A stretch of DNA of 57,282 bases from a virus: positions 1 to 57,282 of IMG/VR virus record IMGVR_UViG_3300022929_000029, one strand, 5' to 3'. The first letter of the stretch is position 1; every line of letters begins with the position of its first letter. Position numbers and translations under genes: made by a program. Below, piece by piece: positions 38,647 through 54,555 of this stretch. The notes under the pieces were generated by a model. The model saw nothing but the letters and a program-made list of their open reading frames with translations, had not been told where the DNA came from and searched no databases.

Positions 38647-39063
38647 TTAATTTGATAGGTTAAAGGTTGGATCTAGTTCTTTTGGATCATTAATGACCAT
38701 AGATATTTGATCATCAAACATCAAAAGCATTCTTACTCCCTTATAAAAAAACTTCTGTCCTGTATGTTTTCCATAACAGACATAATCTCCAACAGAACAC
38801 CAAGGACCTTTTGGAAATTTCTTGTCATCTTCATAAGCTGTATCACCGATTGCTAGAACTTTGCCAACCGTTGTAAGGATGGAAATATCATTTACTGTAG
38901 AATCAGGTAGTAGAATACCACCTTTTGTTTGTTTCTTTACGGATACAGGTCTTACAAGAATATGATAACCTGGGATATGTGGAAGAACAGTTGGATCTGG
39001 TGCTTCATCTGCAGAGATCCATTGATCATTCAACATTGCTTTTTCCATTGCTACTGCTTGCAT
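38647..39063 (-). CDS. GroES-like co-chaperonin
   Basis: 138 residues, against about 97 for bacterial GroES. After a 30-residue N-terminal extension comes HILVRPVSVKKQTKGGILLP. This contains a mobile-loop equivalent with a GGILL tripeptide (GroES GGIVL) that docks on GroEL. TVGKVLAIGDTAY, GDYVCYGKHTG and a final beta strand complete the cpn10 fold. By analogy with T4 gp31, it may replace host GroES to fold the capsid protein. It lies between the portal cluster and the scaffold gene. Confidence 0.85.
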   Translation of the reverse strand: MQAVAMEKAMLNDQWISADEAPDPTVLPHIPGYHILVRPVSVKKQTKGGILLPDSTVNDISILTTVGKVLAIGDTAYEDDKKFPKGPWCSVGDYVCYGKHTGQKFFYKGVRMLLMFDDQISMVINDPKELDPTFNLSN

Positions 39064-43530: not shown

Positions 43531-43559
43531 ATTATACCCTTAAGCTCTCCAGTACGCAA
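43531..43559 (-). promoter_or_regulatory. Possible promoter upstream of the portal gene
   Basis: Reading leftward, TTGCGT (43559-43554), 17 bp, then TATAAT (43536-43531) lie at the end of the TerL gene and in the 50-bp gap before the portal. The -35 is weak, so confidence is limited. Confidence 0.35.
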
Positions 43560-45099
43560 CCCTCTTTTTTGTTCTTGGCTCGTCTTCCCAATTAGGATCT
43601 TCAGGGTGGATAAGGTTCCAACTGTCCTTCATGTAATGAACAGCCATAGTCATACAGTCAACTTGGTCATCGTGTGCGCCATTAGGAAATGACATACACT
43701 CTTCAAACAAATCGTCTGCAAATTGTCTGTCCTTTGGTAGCCACACACGCCCTGATTCCATCATAGGCGTTGAAGCGTATACCCTTGCAACCTTGTCACG
43801 GTCAGGTAGATAATCCAGTACAGGTAGACCTGCCCTTCTCATATCCTGTATAAGGGATTGTCCTGAAGCTTTCTTTTCAATAATACAAACATCGGGTCTA
43901 TACTCCTGATATAATTCTTGGGCAATCCTACGCAGTTCAGGATATTCAAACCTCCCCCGGATGTTACCCAGGAGAATTAGATTGGACGTAATATGCTCAC
44001 CACCGTACTCGTCTTTTTCAAACTGACTAAAGATACCCCAAGTCTGGATAACGCTGTAGTCGGCAGTCCTGCGGGTACTAAAGGCCGTGTCATAGGTCTG
44101 GATAATAAAGTCACAGTTAGGTGGCTCGTCATCTTCCCACCATTCAATCCAACGCTTCTTGATAATACCACCGTCATCTGGGCTAGGATCTTGCATATAC
44201 AAAGAGTTCCAGTACCTGGCACCGTTGGTTGCTCGTATTTCCTGTTCGTCAACCCTAAGAACTTCGTCAGGTTTCCACTCAGGGAAGTACGAAGTACCTT
44301 CTGGTAGTCCTAATAAGTCTGCAGCTTCTTCGTCAAGCCATGCAGGTATACTAATAACTTCCCATTTGTTTGTTGTTTCTTCTACCTTACTTTCTTGTTT
44401 CAATAACCAACCACAAAGATCGTCATAATGATACCTTGTATTGACAATAATAATAGAACCGTTAGGCATAATACGAGTACGTAAGCCTGCAGGATACCAT
44501 TCCTTGATATACCTACGTCCTGCTTCGCTAAATGAATCCTCTTCAGACATTACGTCATCCAATAGGGCTACGTGTGCGCCACGTCCTGCTACTTGGCTAC
44601 GTACACCTGCTGCATAATAGGAACCATTCTGGTTTGTTTTCCATTTACCTGCCGCCTTAACGTCACTACGTAGTGCTACACCTCTAAAAATCTTTTGAAA
44701 CTTCTCAGTATTGACAATATCCCTGACAGTTCTACCAAAATCACTGGCAAGCTGGTCAGAGTGAGACACTGACATAATTTCATGGTGTGCAAAGTTACCA
44801 ATGTACCATGCAGGAAACAATTTACTACAGATTACCGACTTAGATGAGCGAGGTGGTAGGAATACCATCAGTCGTTTGGTAGATCCGTCCACTACTCCCT
44901 GTAGCTTTTCACATAATAACTCAATATGCCTACCCATTTGGAAGTCTGAAACAATTGTGGGTGCAAATATCTTGACAAAGGTTAGGAAATCATCCTTGGC
45001 TTTGTAGTTATTGTAGTTATTAATCTTCTCTCGCAGGGTTAAGTAGGCTGACACACCCTGAATATCAGGGAGTTCTTCATTAGTATGACTATCTAACAT
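43540..45099 (-). CDS. Terminase large subunit
   Basis: 519 residues. The ATPase half has a Walker A-like PPRSSKS (82-88), Walker B HVALLDD (176-182, with E/D catalytic residues just after), and coupling blocks around IIVNTRYHYDDL. The nuclease half has IQTYDTAFS and DYSVIQ (first acidic pair) and GAHDDQVDCM near the end (last acidic pair). It pumps DNA into the procapsid and cuts the concatemer. Its small-subunit partner is encoded far away at 9021-9479 on the other strand. Confidence 0.92.
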   Translation of the reverse strand: MLDSHTNEELPDIQGVSAYLTLREKINNYNNYKAKDDFLTFVKIFAPTIVSDFQMGRHIELLCEKLQGVVDGSTKRLMVFLPPRSSKSVICSKLFPAWYIGNFAHHEIMSVSHSDQLASDFGRTVRDIVNTEKFQKIFRGVALRSDVKAAGKWKTNQNGSYYAAGVRSQVAGRGAHVALLDDVMSEEDSFSEAGRRYIKEWYPAGLRTRIMPNGSIIIVNTRYHYDDLCGWLLKQESKVEETTNKWEVISIPAWLDEEAADLLGLPEGTSYFPEWKPDEVLRVDEQEIRATNGARYWNSLYMQDPSPDDGGIIKKRWIEWWEDDEPPNCDFIIQTYDTAFSTRRTADYSVIQTWGIFSQFEKDEYGGEHITSNLILLGNIRGRFEYPELRRIAQELYQEYRPDVCIIEKKASGQSLIQDMRRAGLPVLDYLPDRDKVARVYASTPMMESGRVWLPKDRQFADDLFEECMSFPNGAHDDQVDCMTMAVHYMKDSWNLIHPEDPNWEDEPRTKKRVAYWRA

Positions 45100-45299: not shown

Positions 45300-45363
45300 A
45301 ATTAATCCTTATGTGTTGTATTTTTATCACACTCTTTAAAAAATGTACTGGTTGACAAACAAA

Positions 45364-45393
45364 AGTATACCATAGCTATTGACAATCATACAA
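45364..45393 (-). promoter_or_regulatory. Probable late-arm promoter, overlapping the early promoter
   Basis: Reading leftward, TTGTAT (45393-45388), 18 bp, then TATACT (45369-45364), about 65 nt before the first late gene. Its -35 lies inside the spacer of the rightward promoter at 45379-45407, so the two cannot be occupied together. Confidence 0.5.
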
Positions 45394-45407
45394 GTGAATG
45401 TTATAAT
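45379..45407 (+). promoter_or_regulatory. Perfect-consensus early promoter
   Basis: TTGACA (45379-45384), 17 bp, then TATAAT (45402-45407), pointing into the early arm. The first early gene starts about 950 nt downstream, which gives a very long leader containing the palindromes and GAAC sites. Another TTGACA at 45352-45357 lacks a good -10. Confidence 0.7.
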
Positions 45408-45490: not shown

Positions 45491-45777
45491 ATATAGACTA
45501 TTAAGCCCCGGCTGTCCCCCATGTCTATTAGGAACGCTAATATACCTCATAGGTATCCGTGTTTTTTTATTTCATCTATTTTTCCCTACATCATCCGTCA
45601 AAAAATTGACAGTATCTATAGAGATTTCTGTAGGTACCCTTTTTGTGTTGCAAAAATATTACAGTCAATGATTAAAGACCCTTGTTTTTTTGAAAATATG
45701 TTTGGGGGTGTCTTTATATATTATATAGTCTACGGATTTTTTTGGTGGGGGTGTCAAAAAATTGACGCTTCTACCGA

Positions 45778-45792
45778 GAACAAATCGTGAAC
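45778..45792. promoter_or_regulatory. GAAC-N7-GAAC site (LexA-like box) 1
   Basis: GAAC at 45778-45781 and 45789-45792, spaced 7 bp. The direct repeat GAAC-N7-GAAC (GTTC-N7-GTTC on the other strand) is the SOS box of alphaproteobacterial LexA. It lies between two GTCAA palindromes. Confidence 0.5.
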
Positions 45793-45855
45793 AAAAAAAA
45801 GTCAAGCAAAATCTTGTCAATAATTTGACGTGTCAAAACTTTGACGCCCGGAAAA

Positions 45856-45870
45856 GAACAAAACGAGAAC
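45856..45870. promoter_or_regulatory. GAAC-N7-GAAC site (LexA-like box) 2
   Basis: GAAC at 45856-45859 and 45867-45870 with 7 bp between. It has the same form as the sites at 45778 and 46197 and lies 11 bp after the fourth GTCAA palindrome. Confidence 0.5.
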
Positions 45871-45983
45871 ATCAGGTTTGTCAAGTCATTTATTTGACAC
45901 TTAGGCTACCCTATATAATAAAGTCAAGACTAACTAGGCCTGCCCCCCCTAACAAGTTTAGCCATGCCTAACATTTCCTGCCG

Positions 45984-46020
45984 AGACTAACAAGGTTTGA
46001 TTAGACTAACAAGGTTTGAT
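45984..46020. repeat. 18-bp perfect tandem repeat
   Basis: AGACTAACAAGGTTTGAT at 45984-46001 and again at 46003-46020, separated by one base (19-bp period). A diverged start of the same unit (AGACTAACTAGG) is at 45927. It is iteron-like. Confidence 0.8.
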
Positions 46021-46040
46021 CATACGAAAGACCTGTATAG

Positions 46041-46078
46041 TGTGACATTTTTACAACACCTGCAGCATAAATGTCACA
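46041..46078. repeat. 10-bp perfect inverted repeat
   Basis: TGTGACATTT (46041-46050) and AAATGTCACA (46069-46078), with 18 bp between. The inner arms TGACATT and AATGTCA are the same as those overlapping the promoter at 5922-5950, which suggests one regulator acts at both. Confidence 0.75.
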
Positions 46079-46093
46079 GTCTATCTATTTGTT

Positions 46094-46196: not shown

Positions 46197-46233
46197 GAAC
46201 GAAACAGGAACGTACTAGGAACGAAACAGGAAC
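46197..46233. promoter_or_regulatory. Four-unit GAAC array with 11-bp period (LexA-like)
   Basis: GAAC occurs at 46197, 46208, 46219 and 46230, each exactly 11 bp apart. Within it GAACGAAACAGGAAC is repeated perfectly (46197-46211 and 46219-46233). Three overlapping GAAC-N7-GAAC boxes result. The array lies 130 bp before the first early gene. Confidence 0.6.
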
Positions 46234-46891: not shown

Positions 46892-46959
46892 TTGGACTGC
46901 AATGGGTTTTAAATAATCCATTGCAAGCCTATATTAACTTGAAACAAAAGGATTTGAAA

Positions 46960-47559
46960 ATGTTCAAAAATCATCAAACAAAAATAGGCCAGGCCTGCGC
47001 TGCAAGTCCTGCAGCCGTTGCTGACACTATGATTTGCGTTATCAATTCTATTCGCACCCATTGGTATTTAGTGGGAAATATGAATATTGACGTAAAACAA
47101 AATGGTTTGGATAGCAGATATCTAAACAATGCAGTAAAGGCAAAAGCCTATAAATATATCCAGCGGAATAAAAAAGATATCCATGCAAAATTTGCTGATT
47201 ATAAAGCTGGTAAAATTGATCTTCCCGATTTGCTTTTGTATGTGGCATCATGCCCTAATCTTGGACTAGCAAAGGCAGGTTTCGTAATCCAATTGGCTCT
47301 TGGCGAGATAGGCTGTTTAGATAGTCATAATCTGCAACGGTTCGGATTATCTGCCAGCACGTTCAAATATGGTGCGAATGCGTCATATGCTTTGATGCGT
47401 AAAAAAGCAGAATTATATATCGACACATGCGAAAAGCTAGGCGGGTGTGAACACCTATGGGATAGCTGGTGTGACTATTTGGCAACGGTTCACCCAACAA
47501 AATATAGTGATGGTGAACACGTCTCGCAAATGCATGTTGATTTCATACTAGGTAAATGA
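46960..47559 (+). CDS. HhH-GPD glycosylase-like protein
   Basis: 199 residues from the ATG at 46960 (AAAGGA upstream). The centre, LGLAKAGFVIQLALGEIG then CLDSHNLQRFGL, resembles the helix-hairpin-helix and catalytic Asp of base-excision DNA glycosylases. In endonuclease III the Lys in GVGRKTA and the Asp in VDTH lie 18 residues apart; here the Lys in LAKAG and the Asp in LDSH lie 16 apart. There is no Fe-S cysteine set. It could remove or recognise modified bases, or use the fold only for DNA binding. The assignment is by motif only. Confidence 0.5.
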   Translation: MFKNHQTKIGQACAASPAAVADTMICVINSIRTHWYLVGNMNIDVKQNGLDSRYLNNAVKAKAYKYIQRNKKDIHAKFADYKAGKIDLPDLLLYVASCPNLGLAKAGFVIQLALGEIGCLDSHNLQRFGLSASTFKYGANASYALMRKKAELYIDTCEKLGGCEHLWDSWCDYLATVHPTKYSDGEHVSQMHVDFILGK

Positions 47560-52553: not shown

Positions 52554-52692
52554 AGTTATTACAGAAAAAGAAATACTCATGCATAATATTCATGAGCTGC
52601 AGAAGAGCTTGCAGGATGCATACATTCGTATTGCAGAACTGCACGAGAACCTAGAAAAATGTTTAGCTGAAAAGGATAAACAACATGGCTAA
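52546..52692 (+). CDS. Small coiled-coil protein
   Basis: 48 residues, one continuous heptad-type helix (ILMHNIHELQKSLQDAYIRI, then AELHENLEKCLAEK). Overlaps the genes on both sides by 8 nt. Possibly an oligomerising adaptor or inhibitor peptide. Confidence 0.5.
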   Translation: MSKVITEKEILMHNIHELQKSLQDAYIRIAELHENLEKCLAEKDKQHG

Positions 52693-52972: not shown

Positions 52973-53159
52973 GGTAATGAATAAGATGGAAGACTTCAAG
53001 AAAGTTAAGAGTGCAATTGACAAAGCTATCAGCGCATCAAACACTTTGACCTTGACAGAAAGTAAATTACTTGATAACATTCACGAGAGTTTAGAGAAAG
53101 CACATAGTGGTATCAGTAGGTTTATTAAAATTGTAGAACGCAAGGGAGATTATAACTAA
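52962..53159 (+). CDS. Hypothetical helical early protein
   Basis: 65 residues from the ATG at 52962 with AGGAGATGAAG directly upstream; an earlier ATG lies inside that site. Helical (DFKKVKSAIDKAISASNTLT). TAATG junction with the next gene. Unknown function. Confidence 0.5.
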   Translation: MTVKVMNKMEDFKKVKSAIDKAISASNTLTLTESKLLDNIHESLEKAHSGISRFIKIVERKGDYN

Positions 53160-53368
53160 TGTTATTACATGAGTTCTATAGTGATGAAGATTGCTCTAGG
53201 GGTGGTGGCTCCTATAGAAAAGCAAGCATCTTCAAAGAGCCTGATGGTTCGTATACTATAGTAAAGATACAAGACGCAGCCATCATTGAAGAACTTAATC
53301 TGGCTGGTCACTCAGAACAGTACATGGAAAACATGGCAGAAGATTGGGTCATGGGTGTGAAGAGATGA
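53159..53368 (+). CDS. Hypothetical early protein
   Basis: 69 residues, TAATG start. Acidic, with a Gly-rich turn (EDCSRGGGSYRKASIFKEPD). ATGA junction to the next gene. No family is recognised. Confidence 0.5.
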   Translation: MLLHEFYSDEDCSRGGGSYRKASIFKEPDGSYTIVKIQDAAIIEELNLAGHSEQYMENMAEDWVMGVKR

Positions 53369-54013: not shown

Positions 54014-54331
54014 ATGGACATGAATGATTATCAAAAGTTGGCTATGAAAACTGCTATCTTTCCAAGCGACATGGGTGTATACTATGCCACCCTTGGTTTA
54101 GCTGGTGAGGCAGGTGAGATTGCTAACAAGGTTAAGAAGTTCATTCGTGATGGTCACTCAGTTGAGAAAGAAAAAGAACTCATTAGTGAACTTGGTGATG
54201 TACTTTGGTATGTGGCTGCAGTGGCAGATGTAATTGGTGTAAGCCTTGAGGAAGTAGCAAAAGATAATATGTACAAGCTGGCAGAGCGTCAGCGCAAGGG
54301 AACACTACAAGGTTCGGGAGATAATAGGTAA
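54014..54331 (+). CDS. mazG: MazG-like nucleotide pyrophosphohydrolase
   Basis: 105 residues, one MazG domain. The metal-binding acidic pattern is visible: LAGEAGEIANKVKK (first E pair) and ELGDVLWYVAAVAD (second E/D pair). MazG enzymes hydrolyse NTPs or dNTPs and possibly ppGpp. In marine phages they are thought to clear unusual nucleotides or shift the host starvation state. TAGGAG upstream, TAATG junction to the next gene. Confidence 0.88.
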   Translation: MDMNDYQKLAMKTAIFPSDMGVYYATLGLAGEAGEIANKVKKFIRDGHSVEKEKELISELGDVLWYVAAVADVIGVSLEEVAKDNMYKLAERQRKGTLQGSGDNR

Positions 54332-54555
54332 TGTATAAGTGTCCAGAATGTAATGGCTCATCTATGGTATTGGATAGTGAGGACTTTTATAAAGTCAGTG
54401 ACACATTAGTTAAATGTGTACATACAATGTACTGTCCAGAATGTGGCTGCGATGGGCAACTAGAAGAAGAAATATTTGATCCTAAAGACGAAGACTTAAC
54501 TATGGAATACTTCTTTCCAAATGAAGGAGCAAGTGATAATGATGACGGATCGTAA
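54331..54555 (+). CDS. Zinc-ribbon protein
   Basis: 74 residues. CPEC at residues 4-7 and CPECGC at about 35-40 make a CxxC...CxxC zinc ribbon, followed by an acidic tail (EEEIFDPKDEDLTMEYFF). It resembles small transcription or primase accessory zinc proteins. It overlaps the primase-helicase start by 17 nt, suggesting joint work. Confidence 0.65.
   Translation: MYKCPECNGSSMVLDSEDFYKVSDTLVKCVHTMYCPECGCDGQLEEEIFDPKDEDLTMEYFFPNEGASDNDDGS

Follow-up and report, generated by a model that had tools for sequence, protein, structure and literature searches.

The operators OL and OR of the lambdoid phages are clusters of dyad-symmetric sites in a divergent control region, where Cro and CI act on promoters that the sites overlap. 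The stoperators of mycobacteriophage L5, bound by the repressor gp71, are 13-mers without dyad symmetry that occur at many places in the genome, and their half-site contains TGTCAA. Repeats of TTGAC are also found in centromere sites of the TubR type. A literature search by spellings of the site did not find GTCAA-N4-TTGAC, the palindrome described in this paper, in print.

The window, the whole stretch of DNA analysed here, is the complete 57,282-bp record (G000) of an uncultivated marine-type phage. The first 100 bases of the record are repeated near its end, which fits a circular assembly whose ends overlap by about 149 bp. Genes for terminase, portal, DNA polymerase, gp2.5-like SSB, primase-helicase, endonuclease I, and ribonucleotide reductase are present, and this predicted gene content is that of a T7-like podovirus group. 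Its TerL is 38-41% identical to those of Pelagibacter phages HTVC023P/027P and DSL-LC04, so that even the nearest named phages are distant, and no named phage matched the control region at the DNA level. A TerL scan of viral contigs provided 80 relative loci (L001-L080) for comparison, while no terL relative was found in genome contigs, where one had been sought as a clue to the host. Additionally, a GroES-like (Cpn10) protein is encoded in the late region at 38647-39063, the family match having been tied to this reading frame by eye from the sequence.

The control region and its repeated sites

Late genes run leftward from terL and early genes run rightward, and the DNA between them, 45.3-46.35 kb, is therefore a divergent control region. 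Its features are as follows.

43540-45099: terL, from which the late genes run leftward
45313-45333, minus strand: TGTGATA...ACAACAC element, just before the first late gene
45379-45407, plus strand: predicted sigma-70 promoter, TTGACA-N17-TATAAT, 12/12 consensus, with TG upstream of the -10
45597-45610: palindrome 1, GTCAAAAAATTGAC; at the same place in L001-L004, L009, L011, and L012, with one mismatch in L007
45668-45752, minus strand: conserved non-coding element of 85 bp, ACCCCYAC-A(6-7)-N~11-TATATATA ... ATATTT-A-run ... AGGGT, read leftward
45753-45766: palindrome 2, the anchor copy, GTCAAAAAATTGAC; directly abuts the conserved ACCCC element
45778-45792, minus strand: LexA-type box GTTC-N7-GTTC, between palindromes 2 and 3
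45816-45829: palindrome 3, GTCAATAATTTGAC; 16 bp to palindrome 4, a spacing kept in L001-L012
45832-45845: palindrome 4, GTCAAAACTTTGAC
45856-45870, minus strand: LexA-type box, between palindromes 4 and 5
45885-45898: palindrome 5, degenerate, GTCATTTATTTGAC; one mismatch
46197-46233, minus strand: three overlapping LexA-type boxes, GAAC at an 11-bp period in four repeats
about 46.36 kb: start of the early genes, which run rightward

The exact palindrome GTCAA-N4-TTGAC occurs 4 times in the whole 57,282-bp record, and all copies lie within the control region, where a preliminary description of this DNA had located them. The expectation from shuffled sequences is 0.10 copies, and 4 were reached by no shuffle; for the 1.4-kb control region, the Markov-1 expectation is 0.001. 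No other 14-bp copy was found in a scan of the rest of the genome, so the motif is not equally common elsewhere. When spacers from 0 to 12 were compared, N4 gave 4 copies, N9 gave 1, and all others gave 0, which restricts the enrichment to N4. The full identity of two copies (45597 and 45753) and the 16-bp distance between two others (45816 and 45832) were likewise confirmed. A wider copy had also been proposed at 45880-45898. This stretch contains a one-mismatch N4 site; the orthologous site has both arms intact in L003 and L004 (GTCAAATTATTGAC) and also in L009 and L012. The array itself therefore stands, and is better described as consisting of five N4 sites, with palindrome 5 decayed. Their centre spacings are irregular (156, 63, 16, and 53 bp).

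The promoter at 45379-45407, also found in relatives of the window clade, is upstream of all five palindromes and reads rightward through the array toward the early genes about 0.9 kb away. No clear excess of TATAAT-like hexamers was seen 16-18 bp from the palindrome arms, either in 139 arm contexts of the phage family or in 681 viral contexts among the matches listed, so most copies overlap no recognisable promoter. Taken together with the promoter upstream, this leaves three ways in which a bound protein could work: as a roadblock to elongation, from a distance, or through the conserved element. Promoter overlap is usual for repressor operators but is not needed by activator or roadblock sites.

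The control region holds 5 copies of GTTC-N7-GTTC against 0.024 expected. Among GTTC pairs with spacers of 3-12, N7 accounts for 5 and N8 for 1, with none at other spacers. These boxes are retained in several relatives, and a sixth box of the window is located at 52636. The direct repeat GTTC-N7-GTTC is the LexA box of alphaproteobacteria (PMC3323433, PMC8565304), which suggests that the host is an alphaproteobacterium. SOS control through these putative LexA boxes is possible.

A second repeated element, TGTGACA...TGCAACA, occurs at 45313-45333, 45645-45664, and 46041-46080, and is present also in relatives without GTCAA palindromes. Its form in the family is TGTGACA-N4/5-TGCAACA or TGTGACA-N4-TGTCACA. 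In L013 and L015, a perfect TGTGACA-N4-TGTCACA palindrome lies immediately ahead of the first late gene. Apart from these, the direct repeat GACTAACAAGGTTTGAT is present at 45980-46025 as two copies that lie 19 bp apart among related CTAACA words. Further to the right, 46921-47559 encodes a 212-aa early protein conserved in most relatives, including those without the motif, and distantly related to proteins of Roseobacter and Paracoccus phages.

Distribution of the palindromes among phages

The motif was looked for between the terminase and early genes of related phages and is present in close relatives. In the closest clade, L001-L012, five sites occupy corresponding positions, about 53, 16, 63, and 156 bp from one to the next, wherever the contig reaches far enough. 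More distant lineages have one to seven sites each, nearly all upstream of terL and essentially none downstream. Among larger records, 3 copies were found in G005 and 6 in G018, all in or beside the control region, and exact matching found no copies in G008, G011, G024, and G029. Some terL relatives with a control region have no GTCAA-N4-TTGAC site at all, and the named relatives HTVC023P, HTVC027P, 023Pt_psg01, and DSL-LC04 have zero copies.

A de novo palindrome search upstream of terL in the motif-bearing relatives returned GTCAA-N4 as the leading repeated palindrome that is not AT-only. In 83 distinct sites with at most 1 mismatch, the arms are nearly invariant and the AT-rich centre is variable, with T and A preferred at the flanks. 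The flanking Y and R of YGTCAA-N4-TTGACR are conserved even though they lie outside the search pattern. Of 170 distinct contexts of N4 palindromes with 5-bp arms upstream of terL in the relatives, 52 have GTCAA arms, and against these 52 distinct copies no variant with a symmetric one-step change in the arms was found. Fixed arms, a drifting N4, and the absence of symmetric variants point to recognition by a dimeric protein rather than to a stem kept by pairing.

The 85-bp element beside palindrome 2 was found by its pattern in most terL relatives; the same pattern was missing in L020, L021, L042, L045, L046, and L048, several of which had enough sequence. Two roles for it were rejected: that of a small gene, since no open frame is shared and start, stop, and frame differ between lineages, and that of a folded RNA, as no consensus structure and no Rfam family were found. 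It may be a promoter. The gap between the element and the nearest palindrome measures 0 bp in the window clade. It is 11 bp wide in L076 and 21-23 bp wide in most of the remaining lineages with the site; in L013-L015 and L030 the nearest copies are further out. These distances are near whole helical turns, but they reflect two independent shifts only, so that phasing is suggestive rather than proven. The element is also present in several relatives that have no GTCAA copy. Among lineages lacking GTCAA, L016-L019 and L035 have TGCCTA-N6-GTGCA centred where the centre of the anchor palindrome would be; this sequence may represent a site of changed specificity.

In viral contigs at large, at least 120 stretches contain two copies within 25 bp. 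The same scan gave 8 and 18 stretches for palindromes with permuted arms, 49 for a spacer of 5, and 17 for the everted palindrome; tandem arrays are thus over-represented relative to four controls. The Y...R flank preference, which was not part of the search pattern, is seen again in the viral arrays among the matches listed. With open reading frames of at least 90 aa, which cover 78% of the DNA, the array centre falls outside them in 88 of 114 distinct arrays and inside in 26 of 114 (among the matches listed), compared with 4/8 and 11/16 inside for the permuted-arm controls. A homolog of the window TerL, with 24-88% identity, was present in 21 of the first 79 loci among the matches listed, so the enrichment comes partly from related phages. 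Many other phages carry such arrays, and they are mostly unrelated to the phage of the window. Terminase subunits are the commonest genes beside the arrays among the matches listed. HTH_3 was matched only once among the 84 array neighbours listed, that is, there is almost no adjacent repressor gene.

Proposed function of the array and the search for a binder

These findings imply that the array is, very probably, a conserved, sequence-specific element bound by a protein. The reading preferred here, an operator array for a homodimeric regulator of the early/late transcription switch, is held to be probable although with distinctly less assurance. The suggestion of an operator array in the preliminary description is in part borne out by conserved position, arms, and spacing, by the lack of symmetric variants, and by the intergenic arrays elsewhere; dimeric binding, transcription as the output, and the switching role are what we infer from them. 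A homodimer would grip each YGTCAA-N4-TTGACR palindrome with one subunit per arm, and bound dimers would regulate transcription at the junction of the leftward terL operon with the rightward early promoter (45379-45407). The anchor copy would face the adjoining element (45668-45752) from a constant side of the helix and act on it, and dimers could bind cooperatively to the tandem pair at 45816 and 45832.

Profile scans of most window proteins with Pfam and PHROGs found no DNA-binding regulator and, in particular, no XRE-type repressor gene. The 69-aa protein encoded at 53159-53368 is found in genomes with the motif and is absent from four without it; it was nevertheless rejected as the binder, since it is also found in phages without the site in the control region (L130). 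The first early gene was rejected because it is not common to the motif-bearing lineages. All-against-all protein clustering of array-bearing phages yielded nothing beyond structural, packaging, and replication genes and unassigned reading frames, which removed the candidate of a shared regulator, and no small protein common to these phages was found. A small, fast-evolving phage protein would escape both profile and clustering searches, and there is a slight leaning toward a small unannotated phage protein, rather than a host protein, as the binder. As a separate observation, 54331-54555, just before the primase-helicase gene, encodes a 74-aa protein with two CPEC motifs (zinc-ribbon-like). 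It is a possible small regulator and was not found in all motif-bearing relatives.

A host regulator could instead be exploited by the phage, as with the neighbouring LexA-type boxes. This is a version of the preferred reading, with which its confidence overlaps, and by itself it is considered possible but doubtful. No phage gene tracks the motif, and some bacteria have tandem sites of the same architecture beside genes that resemble those of MarR, LacI, XRE, and IclR regulators (recognised by eye, among the matches listed). The earlier statement that no regulator is known with this site is softened by these bacterial sites, none of which is linked to this phage, and their varied neighbours mean that the arms alone do not identify the regulator family. 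Against a host regulator, the tandem pair is rare in alphaproteobacterial chromosomes, being present in 2 of 385 genomes, and single sites are near the chance level in three genomes of this class. The preliminary description had also offered iterons of a replication initiator. On this reading, the palindromes would belong to an origin beside an AT-rich unwinding element (TATATATA, within 45668-45752). Such an origin is regarded as unlikely. The AT-rich non-coding element is conserved at fixed distances from the anchor copy, and the cumulative GC skew has its minimum at about 44-46 kb; however, this turn coincides with the change in gene direction and is confounded by it. AT content around TATATATA is locally not exceptional. 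The sites are irregularly spaced palindromes instead of regular direct repeats, array neighbours elsewhere among the matches listed are mostly terminase and not replication genes, no initiator gene was recognised, and several relatives have the element with no GTCAA copy. The iteron proposal was thus not upheld.

The frequent position of arrays beside terS or terL in diverse phages (among the matches listed) could also mean that the palindromes form a pac or cos site bound by the small terminase subunit. This is judged quite improbable. Although 31 of 60 upstream contig ends of terL relatives fall 400-1000 bp before terL, they are scattered with no fixed position, which led to the rejection of fixed genome ends; this clustering possibly represents assembly breaks in a variable region. 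The terS of the window, at 9.0 kb, is far from the array, the array-bearing phages have differing terS families, and a ring-shaped TerS is ill suited to a two-fold symmetric site. Stem-loops in an early leader transcript, or cruciforms in DNA, are less credible still, even with an early promoter that reads through the palindromes and with exact copies that fold into stems of at least 5 bp with a 4-base loop at about -4 to -13 kcal/mol. Pairing would predict compensatory arm changes, of which there are none (zero symmetric variants against the 52 copies), and no consensus RNA fold was obtained for the flanking element. Least credible of all is a set of host promoters in which the TTGAC arms would serve as -35 boxes. 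TTGACA is indeed the sigma-70 -35 consensus, but the flanking base is A or G and not A alone, and -10 hexamers are not in clear excess at 16-18 bp from the arms.

If the operator reading is true, the array marks the early/late switch of an uncultivated phage group without a recognised regulator, and the array region would give a short probe for fishing that regulator out. Moreover, the identical site in many viral contigs suggests a common phage regulator missed by gene-based annotation, and LexA-type boxes among the palindromes would tie the switch to host DNA damage. In its widest form, offered tentatively and thought rather unlikely as a whole, the proposal is that YGTCAA-N4-TTGACR arrays are a cis-element shared by many unrelated phages and bound by one unrecognised class of regulator, which would control late or terminase operons with no repressor gene alongside and which here, interleaved with host LexA sites, would form a DNA-damage-responsive switch.

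Comparison with known operator systems

Like lambdoid OL and OR, the array consists of several dyad-symmetric sites in a divergent phage control region. In contrast to that system, no CI/Cro-like gene adjoins the array or was found in the genome, the sites are spread over 300 bp with a different sequence, and promoters are not overlapped. The L5 stoperators resemble it as multiple short repressor sites downstream of promoters, whereas the sites of the window are palindromes confined to one region. Iteron origins, such as lambda ori and those of plasmids, also have repeated sites near an AT-rich stretch; here the spacing is irregular and an initiator gene was not recognised.

Parallels to the site itself are found in bacteria. 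Beside MarR-like genes of Rhodococcus (L291, L330, and L367) and Nocardia (L357), assigned by eye, the same arms with the same N4 are arranged in tandem. No MarR protein was found in the phage. The same arms in tandem also form putative LacI-type operators at Paenibacillus, Curtobacterium, and Bifidobacterium loci; there the N4 is mostly NCGN, while in the phage family it is AT-rich without a central CG. The array would be a further case of a known kind, the operator array, made more interesting by its presence in many phages and by the LexA-type boxes that lie between its palindromes.
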